64,000 nt of DNA, taken from the NCBI RefSeq assembly GCF_000151315.2, contig NW_011887292.1, positions 271,304-335,303 of the forward strand, in the 5' to 3' direction. Below, in pieces: positions 1 to 38,797 of the stretch. This DNA comes from Capsaspora owczarzaki ATCC 30864. Its lineage: Eukaryota > Opisthokonta > Filasterea. The notes beneath the pieces are model-generated. The model searched no databases and had not been told where the DNA came from. It was given only the letters and a program-made list of their open reading frames with translations. A program made the position numbers and the translations under genes. Each line of letters starts with the position of its first letter. Within the stretch, counting starts at the first letter, position 1.

Positions 1-799
1 GAAAGTCCCCTCGCCCCGTCGCGTGCGCTTTGAATATGTGATTCACGTTGTCGGTATGTCGATTGGCCAGTTTGTTTGGGCGAGGGAGGCGGGGGCAAGG
101 GGGTTGTTTGTTTTTGTTTGCTTCAGTTTGTGGTTTTTTTATCTGCACGGCGCTCACCTCTATTTTGTCCAACAATCCCATTCGCAATCCCACTTAAGGT
201 CCCAACATGAATCCTCAACGACCCCAGTGCCTGCACAACAACTACGAAAAAGGCTCGCAGCTGCTCAGTGCGACGTACCGTGCCATGTTTTCCACGTTTG
301 CCAAGCTGGCAAGTGTCTAACGGGGTTGTTTTTCGATTTCGAGATCAGAGGTTTGATCCCTTCTCTCTCTCTCTCTCTCTCTTTTTCCTTCCACCCTCGA
401 TCCCCTGTAACGTTCTCTTTCTCGTTCTCTTTCTGACTTGAAAATCGCTCATCGTCCACATGGCTGGCTGTTTTGTCCCTTTTTTAAAATGGTGACTTGT
501 TTTATGCGTTAAAAATTGACACTTTTTTTAATGTTGTGTTTTTAACTCATTCCTTGAAATCCAGATCCAGTTCATCGTTCACTGCGCTGCTCATCGCTTT
601 GCCTCCACAGCACACACACACACACTCAGACACACAACTCACACAACACTCAGACACTCGCATCTCGACGAACGGCCCGGCATTTTGGAAAGCTTTGCAC
701 AACAACAACAGAGTGCGACGTAACGACATAGATTTTGTTTCGCATTCAAAAACCACGTCAAACCGGGCTGTTGGAGAGAGGACGAGGTCTGTGCAAACA
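1..799. other. 5' flank of the urea transporter gene
   Basis: No supported gene. The stretch holds a short CT microsatellite near 363-382 and a CA-rich tract near 611-650, followed by the first convincing ATG at 800. The reading frame stays open back to 497, but that part is simple-sequence-rich and looks like 5' UTR. An open frame at 23-436 lacks recognisable protein features and was not called. Confidence 0.5.
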
Positions 800-3700
800 A
801 TGGCGACAGACACAGTGTCCACCATCTCAATGGAGCAGGACAGGAGCAGCTTGAGCGGGCAGAGCGTGAGCAGCAGTGGGAACGAGGGTGGAGCGACCCG
901 CGCGACAGCATCGGCGGTGGGTCGAGCCACAACAACTGCAACCCTTCGTCCAGCAGCAGCAGCAGGGAGCGAAGCCACGGCCACCCAGGCACGGACGAGA
1001 CACTCTGGGAACACCCAGGCACGCGCGGGCACGGGTCAGCCGGGGCTGGGCGCGCGCACGCTGGCGCTGCGAACTATTCGCGGGCCGAACGCGGGCGCAG
1101 GTGGGCGGACGCTCAAACTCACGCCGAGCAATAGCACTGGCAGCGCTGTGTCGGGAGCCTCGTCGGCATCAGGAAATGCAGCAGCAGCAGCAGCAGCAGG
1201 AAGCCCGCGAACAAAGCAGGAAATGGCTGCGTGGGGCGACTTCCACAAGACAATGAAGCGGACGACGGCGCTCGCAAACCACTCTGGGAACGATCTGCAG
1301 GCGTGGAACGGCTTTGCTGCGAACGACGTGCAGTACCTGCTCGCAGACCACGGCACAGAGCTCCATCGGAACAGCTTTGGTGGAGACGATCTGAATGCAG
1401 AACAGCTCGCTGCGTGGTCGGACTTTGGCAACACGAACAATGCGCAGCAATTCCTCGGACAGGCGGAGCGATCACCGTCGCTGCCAACGAGCGGGGACTT
1501 TCCCTTTGCTGGTGCTGGTGCTGGTGCTGGTGCTGCCACTGATGACTCTGCCAGCATGGATTCCAGTGATGCAAACCACGCGCTTCGGTCGAGCATCTTT
1601 GTGGGCAATGCAAACGCTCGAGGCCTTACATTGCGTGCGCCAGCGAAAACAATGCGCGGAGCATCGCCAATGTTCAAGCCTGCGCCAACCATTTTGGTAA
1701 CGACGACAACGGACGACCAGCCTCCGCTTTCACCATCCACATCCGAGGTGTCTGCCTTGTCCGGAAGTGTTCTTGTGACCGAACCGTTGCGTGCAAGCGC
1801 GATTGTGCCTGGCGCCTCGGTGGAAATTGAGCTGGCAGTGGAAGCCGAGCAGTCGCAAGCCCAAAGCGCTAGTGCTACCGCTGATGGCTCGGCGACCGGC
1901 TCAGCGCCACAAAGCATCACCGTGCCCGATGATGCGGTCACTGTTCGCGAATCGTCCTCGTACGCAACTGACGCAACGTTGGCTGTCACCGCCTCGGCAC
2001 CTTCTGTCATTGCTGCTGCAGCTGCTGCTGCAAACGGATTTGCGACAGTACGACTGCCATCGCGGCAGGTCAGCCAATCTATGGCGACGACCGACGCATC
2101 GGGACGCGTCGACTTGTTTGACATGCAGCAGGCCAAGTCCCAGGGCGAGGCAGCCTTGCATCTGGATGGCGATGAATTTGCCGCGACGGCCGACCTCCCC
2201 ATGCGGCATTTCGTCTCCACCGTCCTTGGAAAGGTGACGGGCACCATGCCTCAGTCTGCCAAGTGGTGCGATCGCTTCTGGTGGGCTCACTTTATTGACT
2301 CTTGCCTGCGCGGCTACGGTCAAATTCTGTTCATGAACAACCCCATTTCGGGGCTCTTCTTCCTCGCGGCAATCTTTGTCCACTCGCGCTACTATGGCGT
2401 GTGCTCCATCATTGGCGCGCTCTGCTCGACGGGAATCGCGTACTTTTTGTCGCTCAACCGCGCCTCCATCCGCTCTGGCCTGTTTGGCTTTAACGGTGTT
2501 CTGTGCGCCGTGGGTGTCGCCCTCTTTCAAAATGCCGACGTGGAAGGCTGGGACAACTGGCTGCTCTACATTCCAATCGTCATCATTCCGACCTTGTCGA
2601 CGCTCATTGTTGTTGTGATTGGTAACATTCTCGTGCGCCATTTCGGGCTGGCCACGTTCACGCTCCCATTCCATGCAGCGACGTGGATGTGGCTCCTCGG
2701 CAGCCAAGTGTACGCGTACTTTCCGTCGCAGGGTGCCGCCGCAGCTCCGTATCTTCAAGTACCGACGACTGGCGCCGATATTACTCCCATTTCCTACGAC
2801 ATTGCTTCCGTGTTCAAGGTGATTGGGTACAATATCGCGCAAGTTTTCTTCCTCGAAAATCACATCAGGTGAGTAGTGCTCAAGAGTGGTGGGGTGTCGT
2901 GCAACAACAGTTACACCGTTGTGTGTACCTTTTGTTGTTGTTTTTTTGTTTTTTTGTTTGTTTTATTTTTTTGTTTGTTTGTTTGGGTTTTTCTTCTTGT
3001 TTTTTGGCTCATTCTACATGACACTTCACAGTGGATACATTATTGTCGCGGGAACCGCAGTCTGCTCCCGGATTTCAGCAGTCATGTGCGTTTACGGCTC
3101 CATCCTTGCCATTCTGATGTCGCTTGCCCTCGGCGTTCCAGTTGGCCAATTCTATGCCGGCCTGTGGGGATTTAATCCTGTGATTGTGGCTGTCGCCATT
3201 GGCGGCATGTTCTACGTCCTGTCGGCTCGTGTGTTTGCGCTCTCTACGGCTGGTACCATCATGTCCGTGTTTGTGCACGGTGCTGTGAGCTCCATGCTCC
3301 GGCCCATCGGTTTGCCGGCGCTCACGTTTCCGTCTGCCGTCACAAGTCTTGCATTCTGCTTGATGGCCGGTGCCATTCCCGGCGCAGTGCCTGTTGAGCT
3401 GAGCCGCATGACCGTTCCCGAGGATCACCTCCGTCGCCAGCGGCTGGCTGAGCGTGTCTTGTCACGCTTTGCTGCTGTGCGGAGCGTTTCTCGGCAACTC
3501 AACAACGGAGCCTCCGCCCACGAGCAGCAGTTTCTCGAACAGTTGTTTGTACCGCTGCTCCTGTGTTGGGCAGCCGCGACGGGCGATGTTCAAACGGTAG
3601 CAGAGCTGATCGAGCTGGGCGCCGACCCGAATGTCGGCGACATGCACAGTGGCCGCACTTGTCTCCATCTTGCCGCGGCGGAGGGCCAGCTCGAAGTCGT

Positions 3701-5222
3701 GCGCTTTTTGATCAGTCGCGGCTCTCATGTCAACCAGGTGGATGTCCACGGCAACACTCCCTTGGACGATGCCATCGCGTCCCAGCAACCAGCCACTGTC
3801 GCATTGGCGCTGTGCCACAACGGTGGAGTGCACAATACGCCCGCCAGTCCGCAGGCCCGCACCCTGTGCGAGGAAGTGGCGCTCGGAGCTACCGACAAGG
3901 TGGCTCGACTGTTGCAGCTGGGCTACGACGTGAACGTCTGCGATCTGTACGACCAGCGAACTGCGCTGCACGTTGCCTGCAGCATGGGCCATCCGTCCTT
4001 GGTGATGGTTTTGCTGTCGTGCGGTGCAAGCATTTACAACAAGGACCGCTATGGCCAAACTCCAGTGGACAATGCTCGCACCTTTGGCCACGAGAAGCTG
4101 GCGACATGGGTGGCAGCGGAAGGCGAGCGGATTGCAGCCTCCAAGCGCCGGCCCATCCAGCGCGGTCGATCTACGCGACAGCTCAAGGTCGTCGCCGCTC
4201 CCGCCGCCGTTGAGCAGGATGAGAAGGCAGAGAGCATCGAGCTAATTGCCTTGCAAAAGTCGCGCAATCCTCAGTTCCAGCGCAAGGCAACCCTCGCCAC
4301 CATCGCCCCTGTCGATCAGAGCCACGGGGTCAAGACTAGCTCGAGCGAAGACGTCCATGAGGAAGAAGAGTTGGAGGTGCGTCCTGCGGTCTGCTCGCAA
4401 GAGCTGCTCACCTCCGACGACGAGCTGGCGTTCGCCGTGGACATTCTTCAGGCCCTGCTTTTGTCACAGGATGAGGTGGCTCTCAAGGCTCTTGGCCCAG
4501 CCCTGCTTTCAGCATCTGCGCTCTCGAATTCCACAGAATTCCTCACCATCATGCTCGAAATGGGTGTCAACCCCAACCTCTCCGACTATGACAAGACCAC
4601 GGCCCTCCACATGGCTGCCGGAGCCGGAAACCTGAACGCAGTCAAAGCCCTTATCTATTTCGGCGCGGACGTCAACGCCACCAACCGTTGGAACCAGACG
4701 CCGCTCGACCGCGCAGTGCTTTGCCATTGCACGCTCACCGAAGGAGTGCTTTCTCTGCTGCACGCCCAAGAGCGCCGCATCAACATGCACGAGTCCGCCG
4801 CTGCCTCTTCATCGCACACTCTGGAGCTGGTGCGCTTTTTAGTCGCCCGGGGTGCGGTTCTTGGCCTTGCGTCCCGTCCAATGTCCTTGGCGTCCGAGCT
4901 GTGCGACTTGGTGATGGTTGCCTCCGCCTCCTGCCGCTCGGATCCCCGTCATAGCGCCGAAACGCTCGAGCGCGCTCAGCAGGATCTGTCTCTGTGGACG
5001 ATTGCGGGAGCTGACCTCAGCGCTGCCGAGTATGATGGACGCACCTGCCTGCATTTGGCGTGTGCGGAGGGCCAGGCCAAACTCGTGGACGCGCTCCTCG
5101 TCGGTGGCGCCAATCCGCTTCTGCGCGATCGCTGGGGCCATACCCCCATCGACGAAGCTCGAGCCAACGGCCATGCTGCCATTGCTGCTCGACTTGATCA
5201 GCTCCAAGCGGCAGCAAAGTGA
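800..5222 (+). CDS. Urea transporter (SLC14/UT family) with C-terminal ankyrin repeats
   Basis: Two exons, 800-2868 and 3032-5222, with a GT-AG intron (GTGAGT donor) whose phases match, giving about 1419 aa. Residues 1 to about 485 are low-complexity (Ala/Thr/Ser/Gly). From about 489 to 813 lies a urea-transporter domain: the stretch RGYGQILFMNNPISGLFF and the later GFNGVLCAVGVALF and GFNPVIVAVAIGG are the twofold pseudo-repeated hallmarks of this channel family, which moves urea passively across membranes. The intron falls between the two halves of the transporter. From about residue 869 to the end there are several ankyrin repeats (for example GRTCLHLAAAEGQLEVVRFL, TALHVACSMGHPSLVMVLL, TCLHLACAEGQAKLVDALL). 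Classical UTs lack ankyrins, so this is a fusion; the repeats are presumably cytosolic and may regulate or localise the channel (inference). The start at 800 is the first good ATG before the acidic/Thr-rich N-terminus; an upstream start is possible. Confidence 0.88.
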
Positions 5223-30572: not shown

Positions 30573-32651
30573 ATGAATAGCAGTCATAGTCACAGCACTA
30601 GTCATACCAATAGCACAAGAGTCACTGTGCTGCGATGGGTGTCGCTCCTTGCGGGGTTTGCCATCATGGTGATGAGTGGGACGCTCTACGGCATCTCTGC
30701 GTACTCGCCCGAGATCAAGTCGCGCCTCAACTACACCGAGCCAGACATCAATCTGATCACATCCATCGCCGATGTCGGCCTGTAAGCAGAACAGACACAC
30801 AAGCAAAAAGTCCTCCCCTCCGCTCGCTCAAATCCGCCAATCCGCTGTCTGGGAGTTGGTCAATGCGAATCAAACACTACTGGTTCCAACCTCCGACGAC
30901 CACTCCCCACTCGCCCAACCCCGAAGCCCCCGCTGCCAATATGGACGTGTGCATGTGCTTGTGTGTGTGTGTGTTCGTGCACTGCGCAGTGGCTGCCCAG
31001 AGCCAAGCAAGATTCAACCACATGACACGTCCAGGCGCACAATTCTGCCAGCCATCACGACCAATTCCCCCCCCCCTCCGTCTCGCCTTCCTTCCGTTTG
31101 GTTTGGGACATCAGACGCTTGTTTGACACAAGCGAGATGGTTGCTTTGGAAAGTGAGACCGAAAAGCGCCTCAAGCTTGAACTTTGCTTGTTGATCACCA
31201 GACAACTGAACAATTTGGGAGTTTTTCGTTTTGGCAAAATCCGATCGCGGCGGGGAATTCACCAATGTCCGAATGTTGATTCGGCTTTTGGAGTCATTCA
31301 CCTGAAAACTGAAATTGGAGCATTGGGGGAAAGGGTGTGCGATTTGGAACAAAACGCTCGCGACAAACGCACTCAGATTTACTTTTGTTTGGTTTGGTCT
31401 GGCTCACTTTTGCTCTGATGGAATGGTAGATACGTTTCCATTCCTGCAGGTCTTGTTTATGACCGGTTTGGATTTCGAGTCGCGGCGAGCATTGGAGCGG
31501 TGATGATTGGGCTTGGATACCTGCTCATGTACATTGCCGTTTGGCAAGACTTGGCACCGAGCAAGGCGCCGCTGATGGGCGCTATTCTGGCCCTCGTTGG
31601 GCAAGGAGGCATCTTTGGAGTGATTGCTGCGATGGCTGCAAACGAGCGCAACTACCGGCCTCGAGACAAGGGCAAAGTGGCAGGCTTTTTGTTTGCCGGC
31701 TTTGGTTCTTCTGCAGCCATCTTCAGCGCAGTGTACAAGCTGGCATACCAAAACTCGGCAGATCTCGAAGGCTACTTTATCCTGCTTGCCTGCACAACAG
31801 CGGCCATCTGCCTCGTTTGTGGTCTGTTTCTCCTTCGACACCTCCCTCAAGACGAAATGTTGTACCCTTCCGATACGGAAAAGGACGGCAGCAAGGCGGC
31901 ATTGCTTGGAGACGAACGCCCCGTTCCAGGCTACTCGAACAACAAATCGGTCAATCCCTCAAGCATCCTGCTGGCGAGCGCAACACATGCTGATCTGCTC
32001 AAGCGACCCGACCTCACGCCGCTGGAAGTGCTACGAACCAAGCTGTTTGTGCTGATCTTCTCGGTGATTATGATTTCTGTGGGCGCCGCGCTGCTCTTCA
32101 TCAACAATCTCGGCTCCATCTACGAGGCGTACGGTGGGCAGCATGGCGAGTCCGGCAATCTCGTCATTGTCTTTTCAGTCCTCAACGTCGTGAGCCGCGT
32201 CATTTTTGGGTACCTCTCCGACCACTTTTCGCGGCATCTCTCTCGTGCCTCATTCCTCACGATGGCCGTCGTGATTGTAACGGGTGCTCAGCTGCTGCTT
32301 GCATGGAGCACGGTGGATTTGCTCTATCTGGCCGCTGTTTTGGTCGGACTGGCGGATGGCGGTATCTTTTCGCAGTACGCAGTGCTTGTCCGCGAAAGTT
32401 TCGGCGCCAAACACTATGGCACCAACTTTGGCCTCGCCACAATGGCAGCTGGAGTGGGCGTCTTTCTCTTTGGCCCAATGTCCGCTGCCTTGTACGATGA
32501 TAAAATCGTCGGCGACGGGAACAATTGCTACGGCGAAAGCTGCTATCAGACCTCGTTTTTTATTTCCGCTGGCTGCTGTGCATTTTCGTTGTTGTTGTGC
32601 GTGCAAATGATTCGCGAAACTCGAAAGATCCATCTGGAGCGTTGGATTTGA
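30573..32651 (+). CDS. Major facilitator superfamily transporter (nodulin-like/monocarboxylate type)
   Basis: Two exons, 30573-30781 and 31430-32651, separated by a 648-nt GT-AG intron; phases fit, 476 aa. About 12 hydrophobic segments. The first half has GTLYGISAYSPEIKSRL and, across the intron, GLYVSIPAGLVYDRFGFR, the loop 2-3 motif region typical of nodulin-like and Mch1-type MFS proteins; a second half repeats it as GYLSDHFSR. A hydrophilic central loop of about 70 residues separates the halves. The N-terminus is Ser/His/Thr-rich. Substrate cannot be assigned from sequence; related proteins move monocarboxylates or small organic ions. A Cys-rich loop (NNCYGESCYQ) lies before the last helix. 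Confidence 0.85.
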
Positions 32652-32770
32652 AAAAACAACAAAAAGGTTGTGCTCATCAAGTTCATGTACAGTAGAAATA
32701 CAAAGTTTAATGAATAGTACACGAATAAATCAATTCAACACACTACGAAAAAGGCTTTGGCGAAGAGTAC

Positions 32771-35700
32771 TCATTGCTCGGTGCAGTGGGGGGATTTCCA
32801 GGGTGGGAAGCAGCCACACGACCATGTAGGCGTCCCGGTCGAAGGCGCAAAAGCATGCTCGCAGACTCCCCGCGCCCGACCTCCACAAACCTGCAGCACG
32901 TACGGGCTCCACCGCTCGGCAAACAAGCCATTGGGTAGCCATGGCTTTCGTGCGCCATTCCAGTGAAGGAGAGCAGCATTGGAAGCATCGAGCTGCCAAG
33001 TGTCCATGTCCTCCTTCCACCCGAGGCCGTTGACATTCCACTTTGGATGGAACGGACCCCAGCGACCGTGCAGAATTAAGAGCATGATGGGCTGAGTTCC
33101 AAGAGACCACAGCTGCGACTGTGCTTGCTGCTTCATCCAGAACTCGGCCATGGTGGTCAGCTGCGCGGCACGCCAAGCAACAAAGTCAAGAATCATCACA
33201 CCAGCGTTAAAGGTGCCAGCAGATAAGTCCATCTTCTTTGCATTCTGCTGGCTGAACAAGGCATGGACGCGTTCGTTCGCAAAGATGGAGCCATAGGTGC
33301 TTGTGGCACGCTCAAGGGCCGCAAACGGTTTGCTTGTGGTGGTTAAAGTATTCCACAAGTCTGCAATATCTTGCTGCACAATCACGTCCACGTCCAAGTA
33401 GATGACGCGGTCAAGGGAGGTGAATGAGTCTGCCAAGTAGAATCGCGCATAGTTTGCTGGGCTGGCCAGGTTGCCAAACACCTGCTTGTTGTCGTACACC
33501 TTGATCAGGTTGATTTGGCGCGAAGTGAGCGAGAAGGCCGTGATCGTGATGCTGGCCTGGCTTTCGTCTTGGCGGAGACCAGCAGCAGTCCTAAAGCCAA
33601 CCATGGCTGGGTTGTCTTGGACTTGAATTCGAGCGTGAAGAGCCGTGCAAAATAGCTCTCGCGATATGGCGTCGACTGCATCGGGCGCTGCAACCAAGTG
33701 AATCTGCAGACGGCCTGGCTCGGCGGAATTGGACAGGATGGAGTTGATGAGCGGAACCAGTCCCGCGACGTGCTCCAAATCCGTTGTAATAATGACGTGG
33801 ATCGGAGAGCGGGCCTGTGTGGCATCGTTGTTGGCATTGTGGGCAGCAACTTTTTCTGAGCTCGTTGTTGCCGTCGGAGCCGCGAGTGGAAGAGGCACAG
33901 AGCAATCCGTTTCACTTCCTTGGCATTGGCAGTAAAACTGGTCTCGGCCTCGCCGGCGGCAAGGGGCGCCATTGGTACAATGGAGACCCACATGCTCGCA
34001 ATTAGATTGCGCTGGAGGAACATGACAACGGGGGCCGGGAAATTGTGCAACAGGTAAGCCATTCAGTCATTTCACAATCAAAACACAAAAAAAGTCCTAC
34101 CAATAGAGTAGGTGCCGTCCCTTGCTGAAAGGAAACCAAGCTCAAACTCTTGCTCCGAGCTCATCTTCCATTTGAGATATCCGTTGGTGTTAAACCCCTG
34201 ACAGTCGGGCGTCGAGTCACACAGGGCCATCAGCATGCCAGCCGCTGTAAATTTCAGAGCGTAGCGCAATAGCAGGTCACCGCCGGGCGAATCCATCTTT
34301 GGATGGAACTGATACTCGATTGGCTTGAGCGGTAGAGGCTCGCCATTGGACGCCCGCAGCGCTCGTATCCCCGCTGGCGGAAAGCAAAAGATGCCGTCTC
34401 CAACAAAGCCTGGTTTGCACCTGCATTTGAAAGCGCCATACTGGAGAAAGTCGCAAGTTGCATCCGGCGAGCACTGATGCAAGTCATAGTCGCAAGGGTT
34501 GATGGCTAAAAACAATTGTAGGGGGGCGGGATTGCGTTCGAGTGAGTCAACCAAGGGAGCAAAACATGCCAAGAAATCCAATCCAAATGAACGTTGATTT
34601 ACCTGCGACATAGGTACCCGTGCTTGTATCGCGAACGGGATCGACGGGTTGGGCAGCGGCAATATCGCCGAGCTGATGCTTTAAATAGCCATCGTGAGGG
34701 GTGAATGCCAAGCACTCATCGTACCGGTTGCACGCCTTGATTAGCTCGTCTGGTCGGTCAACTGCAAAATCAAGCAGTACCATGTCTGCGGACTGGGGAA
34801 AGAGCTTTTCAACCAGGACGAACGATTTGGTACTCAGGCCGTCCAAGAGGGGTAGAGAAACGCCTCTCGCTTGATCGAGAGCCACGAGATGAGCGCGATC
34901 CGACTCGATGCGAGCGCGCTTGGCGTCTGCGATCGTTGCTGCCATCATTTTCTCGCTCTTCTCCTGTTGCTTGGCGCGAGCGCTCTCCAGCTTGGCGATA
35001 AACTCGCCGACTGCGGGGGATGGTGTGACCCATTCCGTGGAGAGTGTTCGACGGTCTGCGCTGACGTGGTGGTACCACAGAAACCAGCGAACAAAGTCTT
35101 GCAAACCCGCGCGAAACGAGACGGCTGGCAAATATTCCAGCGTCATGATCAAGTCTTGCGTATCTGCGCACGTGCGTGCGAGCTCTCCACGCGGGAGTGG
35201 ACCGATGGTGATTTCGTCGTTCAACGACTTGCCTCCCAGTTGGTCCACGAGCTCTTGCGCGAGGAGGGCTGCAACGTCTCTCACCGACCTTGGTTGCCCA
35301 AAGCCGAGATTGATGACAGCGAAATCAATGTAATCGGCGTTCATTGCAAGCACGACAGCATTGGACACGTCCGAGATGTGAATAAAGTCTCGCTCGGGAA
35401 ACTCTGTGGTGCTGGCGCCGGCCTTGGCTCGGAGCGAGTGCAAGGTGACTTTGGAGCTCGAGGACAGAAATCCCCGCGCAAACGCAGAGAGTGCTGAGCT
35501 CGCATCGGCCCACGCACCAAACACAGAAAACAACCGGAGTCCAATCATCGGGATGCCGGTTGTTGCGTGGTAGCTCCAGGCAAGGACTTCTGCGCCCTTG
35601 CTTGTTGCCGAGTACATGCTATGAGGACGATCAACGCGCGCCCAGCTCGCTGAAGGACCACTAGAGGCGTCGTTTAGCCCATAAACGTCTGCTGAAGACG

Positions 35701-36678
35701 CAAATATTAGACGAGGAAGGCGGTGAACGTTGCTGCCAGAGTCAGGACTACTCGACAACGACTCTTTGGGATGCAGAAACATTTTCATTGTCTCCAGGAG
35801 CGAGACAAAGCAGTCGATATTGGCGCGTACTGTGACGTCAGTGTGGTTTGATGAATGGCGGCCTGCACGAGCATCGGCTAGATGGAGGACGTCGGTAAAG
35901 CGGTACCTGTCGAACAATCGCGCCAAAAATGGCCGGTTGCAAATGTCGCCATCGACCACAACAACTCCGTGCATCCTGGAGATATTGAATGCACGATCCT
36001 GCATCAGCGTGCGTGCATTCCACTTGTCCGAAACGGCAGGGTGGGCAAAATTGTCGATTGCAACAATCGTGTGTGCGTGCTTGTCACGCGCAAGCTGCGC
36101 GACCACATTCATCCCGACAAAGCCAGCTCCGCCAGTAACCAATATTGCGCGATCGTTTGGAGGTATCCGTGCCGGGATGTGATCGGAAAGCAGGTGGACG
36201 GGCTGAGCTTGCACCGGTGGAAGCAGCTCGGCTTCTTCCATGGCCTCGGCCTGGTCCCCGTCCGCCGCTGCTGCAGCTGCCGCATCCAGTCTTTGTTGTC
36301 TGAACAGCAGCTGGAGTCGCTGGCGTGGCGTCTGTCCGGTCGCACTGAGCTCGCTCTCTGTTTCAGAATGCATTCACCATTTGGGATTTGAGCTTTGCAG
36401 TGAATCACAGTTGCTCCCCCCCCCTCAAATCTGATCCGATCCGAGGCAACAAAGGCACTGCTCTCAATGTTGCCTATGTGTGTGAGAGCGTTGGTTTGAC
36501 GGCGATCTTGGATTGGCGGGCTCGTCCAGTGTTGGTCCCTGTGGAACTCCATTCCCGCCACAGTCAACTCACCTGAGATCAAACTGTAGCCGACCACGAT
36601 CAGCAGCAGTATTGCAGTAGCAGCTGTGAGCATGCAGATGCGCCGCGACCGCACGCACGAGGAGCCACGCGGGGGCAT
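32771..36678 (-). CDS. Fusion of UDP-glucuronate-4-epimerase-like SDR and GT8 glycosyltransferase, type II membrane protein
   Basis: Minus strand, four exons: 36678-36573, 36357-34603, 34505-34101, 34011-32771; all phases agree, 1168 aa. Residues about 16-34 form one hydrophobic segment after a basic start, a type II signal anchor. Residues about 100-420 are an NAD-dependent epimerase (extended SDR): AILVTGGAGFVG for the dinucleotide, FASSADVYG, and YSATSK with the catalytic Tyr and Lys, followed by GLRLFSVFG; the pattern is closest to UDP-glucuronate 4-epimerases. Then come a PAN/apple-like stretch (to about 615), an EGF module (CDYDLHQCSPDATC), a second similar stretch (CDSTPDCQGFNTNGYLK), a second EGF (CEHVGLHCTNGAPC), a GT8 domain (about 800-1110) with YLDVDVIVQQDIADLW containing the DxD metal site and HWNGARKPW, and a C-terminal EGF-like end. 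It should face the Golgi lumen. Making UDP-galacturonate and using it in the same polypeptide is a hypothesis. Confidence 0.88.
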
Positions 36679-36909
36679 GTTGAGCAGAGCTTTAGAATCA
36701 ACTGAAGATGCAATTGGCTCAGACCAATCCACAAAGCGCACGCGCACTCAAAACACAGATATAGAATGACTGAAAAACGTAGACTGTCTTGCAAAATTTA
36801 TGTGTTTGTTAATACAAGTTGAAATGGAGGATGCAGCACCAACATTGACAAGGATTCGTCCGCGATTGCTGTATTCGGCTACAAGGAGCATCTCCCCCCC
36901 CCCTCGAGG

Positions 36910-38797
36910 TCACTTGGGGACTCGATTGTAAATCAAATCAGCAGTACGGGCAACGGAAATCATTTCTGGCCCATCGTGCACGCGAACAATGTCGACACCC
37001 TGGTCGACGCAAGCGGTTACGGCGGCGGCGGTCGCCCAGCGTCGGTGCTCGGGTGTGTCGAGCTCGGGAGATTGCGCAGCCAATGCGAGAAACCGTTTGC
37101 GAGACGGACCGACGAGCGTGGGCAGCCCATCCATGCATTTGGCAAACTGGCGGAGCTGCGTCAAAAGTGGAAAGTTGTGCTCGCCTGCCTTTGCAAATCC
37201 AATACCCGGATCCACAATAATATTCCAGCGCCATACTCCCGCAAAGACGGCAGCAGCGACGCGTTCTCGCAACTCGTCGGCAATTTGCTCTGCAATCGGT
37301 CGATCATTGGAGTACGTTGCCAGACTCGTCATTGTACCGCTGTCACCTCGCATGTGCATCAGAACGATGGGCACCTGAAGTGCAGCAGCCGTATGTAGCA
37401 TCTCTTTGCTCATCGTCCCGGCTGACACGTCGTTGATAATGTGAGCACCTGCCTGAATGGCCGCTTTGGCTACGCTGGCACGGAATGTATCAATCGACAG
37501 TAGCACCGGAGTCTTGCCGCTGTGTGCCGCGAGGGACGTGATGACAGGTACAACTCGTCTTGACTCTTCTTCTTCCGACACGTACTCGGCATTTGGCCGG
37601 GTAGATTGGCCACCAATATCGAGAATAGCAGAGCCAGCTGCCAAAAGCGAGGTCGCGTGTGTCACAGCCAAATCTGGCTTGGTCCACTTGCCGCCATCCG
37701 AAAAGCTGTCAGGGGTGGTGTTGATAATACTCATAACGTGTGTTTGACGACCAAGCGGGAGCATGGTCGATCCGACAGGAAGCACGCGATACATTGCATC
37801 GGCTCGCGAAATCCCCTGTGTGCGTTGCTCCAGAGCCGAGCAGAGCTCTTGCACAGTCTTGCCGAGCACGGGGTGCACCAAATGTGGGGAGATGCTGGGC
37901 AGAGGACCAAAAAAGCAATGGGAAGAAAAGATCAGCACTCAAAACCATCATGAATCGCTTGTCACGAAAAACACAACACTTACTCGCATAAAGGCTTGAG
38001 CACAAAATCGCGCTCGGTTAACCGGGGATGCGGAACCTCCAGATGGTCACCGTCGCGAACAACATGCAACCCGTGCAGAATAATGTCAATATCGATCTCA
38101 CGCGGTCCGTTGCGGAATCGCGGTTGCCTTCCCAGATTTTGCTCGAGCTTCTTGACACGATCGAGCAATTCGTGCGGCGAGTGTAATGTGCGGATCTGAA
38201 GTTCCATTTCATCAAGTAAGACCAGTCATGAGTGTGCAGTTCATAAGCAATCCAAGTTGACTAGACTGTGCCCCATGCACACGAGCGGATGGCTCCAAGT
38301 TGGCAACTCTCTCAGTTGGTACAAACCTTGCAGACGGCGTTGAGAAATCTGGGCTGGTCTTCGACGTACTTTGGCGCTGTTTCATACAATGCAGATGTGA
38401 TCAATGGATGCTGACCACCTGCGTCGCTGTGGTCGTGGAGCGTTTGCTCAATGGCAAGCAGGGCACGCTTGATGTTGGCGTAGCGATCGCCGACGTTGGA
38501 GCCAAGCGCGAGAACCACGTCGTGGGAGCCCTGCGAGTCGCGGTACCTGCCGAGTTGCTGCCACAATGATGACGCAGCAGTAGCAGTAGCAGTGGCAGTG
38601 GCAGCGGCAGTGGCAGCCGAGGGCGCGGTGGTGGTCGAAGCGAAGAAGCGCTTCAGTGACTGACACGAGGCTCGGTCGGCGCCGCTGCGTCGCGCCAGAT
38701 CAATGGAAGGAGCACGCCATGCACGGTGGATGAGCAGCGTGGAAGCAGAGCGAGCGATGAGGTGGCAGAGTGCACCGTGGACCATGCGACCAGTCAT
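36910..38797 (-). CDS. Bifunctional HPPK-DHPS folate synthesis enzyme, probably mitochondrial
   Basis: Minus strand, three exons: 38797-38327, 38195-37984, 37894-36910; phases agree, 555 aa. The N-terminus MTGRMVHGALCHLIARSAS and following Arg/Ser/Ala-rich stretch looks like a mitochondrial presequence. Residues about 95-235 are 6-hydroxymethyl-7,8-dihydropterin pyrophosphokinase (VLALGSNVGDRYANI, RNGPREIDIDIILHG), and about 240-555 are dihydropteroate synthase (MSIINTTPDSFSDGGKW, DIGGQSTRPN, GAHIINDVSAG, LVGPSRKRFL). The two catalyse consecutive steps: pyrophosphorylation of the pterin, then condensation with p-aminobenzoate. No dihydroneopterin aldolase domain precedes HPPK, so the layout is like plants and apicomplexans and unlike fungal trifunctional enzymes. 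DHPS is the sulfonamide target in general. It points to de novo folate synthesis, which animals have lost. Confidence 0.93.

Follow-up and report, generated by a model that had tools for sequence, protein, structure and literature searches.

A GT8 glycosyltransferase of Capsaspora owczarzaki fused to an epimerase-fold domain that has probably lost its catalytic function

We analysed a 64,000-nucleotide stretch of the Capsaspora owczarzaki ATCC 30864 genome (contig NW_011887292.1, positions 271,304 to 335,303 of the forward strand), hereafter the window. Its minus strand carries, between 36678 and 32771, a gene that joins an NAD-dependent epimerase-fold domain to a C-terminal GT8 glycosyltransferase domain. 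On present sequence evidence the protein is best read as a glycosyltransferase of several domains, one of them a pseudoenzyme: a Golgi-type GT8 transferase whose epimerase-fold domain is, with good probability, catalytically dead. The earlier note on this DNA had proposed that one polypeptide carries out both reactions. The residues that stand for Lys153, Arg185, Ser127 and Ser128 of a characterised epimerase are Ser, Asp, Ala and Asp, and the genome holds a separate intact copy of the epimerase, which argues against that proposal.

Results

One gene encodes both halves

After splicing, four exons give an open frame of 1168 codons followed by a stop:

36573..36678, minus strand: exon 1, start codon and putative signal anchor (splicing, hydropathy; a GT donor follows directly)
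34603..36357, minus strand: exon 2, stem, epimerase domain, predicted long helix and first cysteine-pair repeat (open frame of about 585 codons with coding-like usage)
34101..34505, minus strand: exon 3, EGF module and second cysteine-pair repeat (a phase-1 intron on either side)
32771..34011, minus strand: exon 4, EGF-like cysteines, GT8 domain, cysteine-rich tail and stop (splicing, cysteine positions)

The three introns (215, 97 and 89 bp) are all GT-AG and all in phase 1; an exon bounded by phase-1 introns is the usual mark of a shuffled module. Retention of intron 2 or intron 3 leads to early stops, and reading through intron 1 meets no stop, yet its 215 bp shift the frame. With a codon-usage model trained on 17 further long open reading frames (ORFs) of the window, whose status as genes was not verified, the proposed frame is preferred in each of exons 2-4; exon 1, being short, is uninformative, and one frame scores weakly positive in intron 1 and one in intron 2. 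Polyadenylation-like hexamers, sought as AATAAA and ATTAAA on the minus strand from 32500 to 37000, occur only at 32711 and 32564, both 3′ of the stop. The weakest junction is that of exons 1 and 2: a pyrimidine tract is not evident at the acceptor, and an anchor-less form could start from an in-frame ATG at 36373. At the level of the spliced frame, the four-exon fusion is confirmed as one gene encoding one protein, in agreement with the single phase-consistent gene described in the earlier note.

Residues about 12-34, encoded by exon 1, are hydrophobic behind a basic start (19-residue hydropathy of 2.33 at residue 16), and this N-terminus fits a type II signal anchor, the earlier note having named a signal anchor. 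The 1168-amino-acid protein was scanned with Pfam, matches being accepted over the gathering score. Three were obtained: Epimerase at residues 107-376 (1.2e-31), EGF_3 at 625-661 (9e-9) and Glyco_transf_8 at 827-1114 (1.8e-45). Given these E-values the matches are not due to chance, and the two enzyme-like halves announced in the earlier note are thereby found in the same spliced protein.

The epimerase domain lacks key active-site residues

Two short patterns were used to collect the 80 best relatives of the domain in prokaryote genomes. The domain was compared with these and with the UDP-glucuronate (UDP-GlcA) 4-epimerase UGAepi of B. cereus, residue equivalences being taken from the alignment to structure 6zl6. 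Neither pattern spans positions 288 or 320; one spans 258/259, and permits Ser/Ala and Ser/Asp there.

35336..36145, minus strand: NAD-dependent epimerase domain, residues 107-376 (Pfam; structural match to about residue 465)
35600..35614, minus strand: YxxxK site, read as Tyr284-Ser-Ala-Thr-Ser288, with Ser in place of the catalytic Lys (Lys153 of 6zl6; Lys in 80/80 relatives)
35504..35506, minus strand: Asp320 in place of the carboxylate-binding Arg (Arg185 in B. cereus; Arg in 80/80 relatives)
35687..35695, minus strand: Ser257-Ala258-Asp259, equivalent to Thr126-Ser127-Ser128 in B. cereus (Ser in 79/80 relatives at 258 and in 79/80 at 259)

The glycine motif, Asp137, Ser257 and Tyr284 are kept; the Asp is presumably that of the NAD site. 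The catalytic triad Ser/Thr-Tyr-Lys is incomplete, Ser257 and Tyr284 being there and the Lys replaced by Ser288. In UDP-GlcA 4-epimerases, according to PMC7984243, the Tyr/Ser/Lys triad is universally conserved, a change of the Tyr alone costs about 1.2 × 10^3-fold, and the carboxylate of the substrate is held by Thr126, Ser127, Ser128 and, through its main chain, Thr178. Arg185 holds the carboxylate of the product (PMC12338863). Among the 75 columns with conservation of at least 90%, 48 are kept and 27 altered in the window domain, compared to 67 kept by the other C. owczarzaki epimerase of this family (on contig C10, fragments joined), 62 by a partial relative (L117) and 63 by the next poorest relative.

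An assembly or reading error behind the missing Lys was ruled out: several separate sites are changed and the frame is intact, and, judging from the codons, positions 288 and 320 are at least two base changes away from any Lys or Arg codon. A slip of the alignment at the YxxxK site was also ruled out, the alignments being ungapped there. The epimerase domain is thus very probably a pseudoenzyme, as judged from its residues, and a two-step enzyme is improbable because residues needed for epimerase chemistry appear to be lost.

Family placement of the epimerase domain

The domain has the extended short-chain dehydrogenase/reductase (SDR) fold with a TGxxGFxG motif. In sequence it is closest to UDP-GlcA 4-epimerases, so that the resemblance stated in the earlier note was borne out at this level. 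The best tree places it inside that family, on a long branch (4.83), with the C10 enzyme as its nearest row (95/85). An AlphaFold2 model of the domain, compared with solved structures by VIA-align, has about 28% identity to 6zl6 in the structural alignment. The label of a further structure, 5u4q, as a dTDP-glucose 4,6-dehydratase was treated with caution, as its aligned sequence seems to resemble the UDP-GlcA epimerase rows. From these comparisons, the domain probably descends from the UDP-GlcA 4-epimerase family. Scans of the viral collection, with single sequences of the epimerase domain, the GT8 domain and exon 3 and with a GT8 alignment, gave no usable locus; one relative was counted in one scan, without a distinct locus.

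Searches of the C. owczarzaki genome itself covered the 27.46 Mb assembly (29 contigs). The C10 enzyme is encoded near 350 kb of that contig by a separate multi-exon gene with YAATK, SSSVYG and GRPDMA intact, so that the cell has a separate candidate maker of UDP-galacturonate (UDP-GalA). Its first fragment is preceded, in the same open frame, by an anchor-like hydrophobic stretch. Six SDR fragments of the genome, C10 included, were compared, and all keep the triad Lys; these are part of the 18 places matched by the Pfam Epimerase profile. At the position of Asp259, the UXS-like ORF of the genome has Glu.

The C10 gene lies in what is a glycosylation gene neighbourhood (C10:348500-374000; L124, L125, L126), where the intact UDP-GlcA 4-epimerase, a GT61-type ORF, a Galactosyl_T/Fringe-type ORF and a GLT8D-like GT8 are found within about 24 kb.

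The GT8 domain and its donor

32936..33799, minus strand: GT8 glycosyltransferase domain, residues 827-1114 (PF01501, 1.8e-45, 155.9 bits against a cut-off of 24.3)
33386..33394, minus strand: DxD metal site, Asp962-Val-Asp964 (codons read; aligns with the DxD of the paralogues)
32939..32965, minus strand: C-terminal His and KPW motif, HWNGARKPW at 1105-1113 (H1105; HxxGxxKPW; sequence reading, paralogue alignment)

The GT8 assignment and its DxD site stood, and an FNAG loop is present at residue 1023. The domain aligns end to end with three GT8 paralogues of the same genome, at 30-32%; those paralogues, on C10 and C11, we take from their motifs to be GLT8D-like, and the exons examined contain no epimerase or EGF part. 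Four main GT8 matches are clustered at C11:702183-716568 (L003-L006), two per strand, and at least the first two are GLT8D-like. Against solved structures, the GT8 profile found LgtC, WbbM, GlyE, 3tzt and LARGE1 (PDB 7zvj), and the single sequence LgtC only; tblastn gave only weak bacterial matches, with seven plasmid and two phage records. WbbM and GlyE are reported to use UDP-galactose (UDP-Gal), and human GLT8D1 is reported to be weakly active as a UDP-Gal transferase and to hydrolyse a number of further UDP-sugars, among them UDP-GalA (PMC10709319).

By its motifs, the domain is probably an active retaining transferase, and its donor, judged from these relatives, is most likely UDP-Gal. 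The idea that it uses UDP-GalA, as plant galacturonosyltransferases of the family do, was not upheld: with GLT8D-like paralogues, LgtC, WbbM and GlyE as the relatives found, most of them UDP-Gal users (no plant GAUT/GATL was in the comparison), the galacturonosyl match is unsupported.

Helix and cysteine-rich modules

34868..35017, minus strand: predicted long helix joining the epimerase fold to the modules, residues 483-532 (AlphaFold2 model helix 389-438, predicted confidence score pLDDT mostly about 65-80)
34670..34744, minus strand: cysteine-pair repeat, copy 1 (C578, C584, GYLK), residues 574-598 (internal alignment)
34384..34494, minus strand: EGF module, residues 625-661 (PF12947, 9e-9, 35.9 bits against a cut-off of 28.5)
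34162..34233, minus strand: cysteine-pair repeat, copy 2 (C716, C722, GYLK), residues 712-735 (internal alignment)
33902..34000, minus strand: six-cysteine EGF-like stretch, residues 760-792 (cysteine positions; Pfam EGF 0.29, below cut-off)
32783..32887, minus strand: cysteine-rich C-terminal tail, residues 1131-1165 (five cysteines; DUF7949 0.012, below cut-off)

The EGF module passes the Pfam cut-off, as foreseen; the tail at 1131-1165 is an EGF-like cysteine cluster that stays under it. The two modules previously called PAN-like turned out to be stretches sharing a CxxxxxC...GYLK pattern. Neither has a Pfam match with an E-value of 5 or less (most matches beyond about 0.1 are already removed by the HMMER filters), and no PAN match was found anywhere in the protein at E up to 1. 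Equal or higher scores were reached in 19 of 2000 shuffles, so that the repeat is likely but modest. In a search of the genome with exon 3, the best candidates reached no further than the EGF part and the few residues next to it.

Surroundings of the gene

Directly upstream, on the minus strand, lies a folate-synthesis gene that ends at 36910, with HPPK and pterin-binding (DHPS) pieces in 36910-38225. A nodulin-like/NFD4 major facilitator superfamily (MFS) transporter ORF (31419-32651, plus strand) is convergent with the fusion gene, their 3′ ends being about 120 bp apart. Further away (488-5219, plus strand), a urea transporter domain is divided between two neighbouring ORFs, with profile positions 1-178 in the first and 176-291 in the second; the second has many ankyrin repeats behind the transporter part, and together the two possibly form a transporter-ankyrin fusion.

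Discussion

The reading that we favour is a GT8 transferase to which a catalytically inactive domain of epimerase fold is attached. The gene would give a type II membrane protein, probably of the Golgi, with a lumenal order of epimerase-fold domain, long helix, two cysteine-pair repeats around the EGF module, and GT8 domain. The dead domain may serve in folding, dimerisation or spacing, or as a sensor that binds NAD or a UDP-sugar. Epimerases of the SDR fold are usually dimers; because of this, and of the long helix predicted after the domain, a structural or oligomerising role would be natural. It is also conceivable, though we hold it with considerable doubt, that the pseudo-epimerase binds NAD/UDP-sugar or pairs with a live UDP-GlcA 4-epimerase, and so recruits or regulates the attached GT8.

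Several points weigh against the favoured reading. Ser257 and Tyr284 of the triad persist, Lys289 lies one residue off, and Asp259 occupies the position of the decarboxylase Glu (PMC7984243), so that altered chemistry is possible; residual or altered SDR activity without the Lys is conceivable. Placement of the domain in its clade is not statistically secure (approximately unbiased test, p of 0.233 and 0.25). The fold ranking does not set it apart from other kinds of epimerase (39.7 at rank 5), and the structural model was built with relatives of the same fold, which biases it toward that fold. On the donor side, GLT8D1 was stabilised most by UDP-GlcA among the UDP-sugars tested (PMC10709319), and glucosyl specificity has been predicted for it by machine learning (PMC7185993).

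A bifunctional enzyme, in which the epimerase would convert UDP-GlcA to UDP-GalA and the GT8 domain would use it, with channelling in the Golgi lumen, can call on a fusion that is real by sequence, on the nearness of the domain to UDP-GlcA 4-epimerases, on the kept NAD glycine motif, Tyr and Ser, and on UDP-GalA being among the UDP-sugars hydrolysed by human GLT8D1 (PMC10709319). We nevertheless consider it very unlikely, with the catalytic Lys, the substrate Arg and two substrate Ser replaced, a separate intact epimerase gene in the genome, and GT8 relatives that are GLT8D-like, mostly UDP-Gal users and not shown to transfer GalA. An SDR domain active with a remodelled site, on another substrate or in other chemistry such as decarboxylation, is unlikely. 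The Asp at the Glu position of UDP-GlcA decarboxylases (PMC7984243), where the UXS-like ORF has Glu, the intact frame and the retained Tyr284 would suit it, but losing the triad Lys is an unexpected route to a new substrate, the SDR fragments compared retain that Lys, and 27 of the 75 near-invariant columns of the family are changed.

A special case of the favoured reading is that the dead domain tethers the intact C10 epimerase to the GT8 domain, channelling taking place between two proteins. It would fit the C10 enzyme being the nearest row of the tree (95/85), the anchor-like stretch before its first fragment, the usual dimers of SDR epimerases and the helix predicted after the epimerase domain; but UDP-GalA is probably not the GT8 donor and the tree placement is uncertain, and we regard this case as distinctly unlikely. 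Least probable is that separate epimerase and GT8 transcripts, from two genes or a gene-modelling artefact, underlie the fusion. Exon 2 extended into intron 2 does hit a stop, and an upstream ATG exists in the frame of exon 3, overlapping exon 2. The two would-be frames overlap, however, with no AATAAA or ATTAAA between them; both flanks of intron 2 are coding and share the cysteine-pair repeat, and every intron is in phase 1.

Known systems resemble parts of this protein. With UDP-glucuronate 4-epimerases (B. cereus UGAepi 6zl6, and 5u4q by sequence; plant GAE is another such enzyme) the window protein shares the extended SDR fold, the Rossmann motif and the Tyr and Ser of the triad; it differs in that the Lys of the triad and the Arg and two Ser that bind the carboxylate are replaced, and in being fused to EGF and GT8 parts. 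Like GLT8D1/GLT8D2-type GT8 proteins it has the DxD, the FNAG loop and HWNGxxKPW, and it aligns end to end with its own paralogues, whereas its epimerase and EGF parts are absent from the paralogue exons examined. LARGE1, in which a GT8 domain is joined to a second transferase domain, is also a multi-domain glycosylation protein with a GT8 part, but the GT8 partner in the window protein is an SDR.

A comparable layout is that of the engineered Mnn2p-Uge1-GalT fusion (PMC8720083), with an anchor, a sugar epimerase and a galactosyltransferase in one chain; it is man-made, and unlike the window protein contains a live UDP-Glc 4-epimerase and a beta-1,4-galactosyltransferase of another family. Digalactosylated glycans amounted to 11.5% with the epimerase domain and 5.1% without it, and its authors suggest that the benefit of the epimerase is partly non-catalytic (PMC8720083). 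The effect on other glycans, the hybrid type included, was at most minor, a point that counts against our reading. This construct is an analogy to the window gene, not evidence about it. No natural epimerase-GT8 fusion was found in the titles and abstract openings of the open-licence papers listed by our literature searches; the novelty of the fusion is provisional, since eukaryotic databases were outside the comparison and the fusion may be annotated elsewhere.

If the favoured reading is true, C. owczarzaki would hold a natural counterpart of a hand-built glyco-engineering fusion, with the epimerase switched off. It would then offer a sharp test of whether tethering benefits a transferase through substrate supply or through structure and regulation. 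It also carries a caution: a metabolic channel should not be read from domain names by themselves, as it is the residues that decide.

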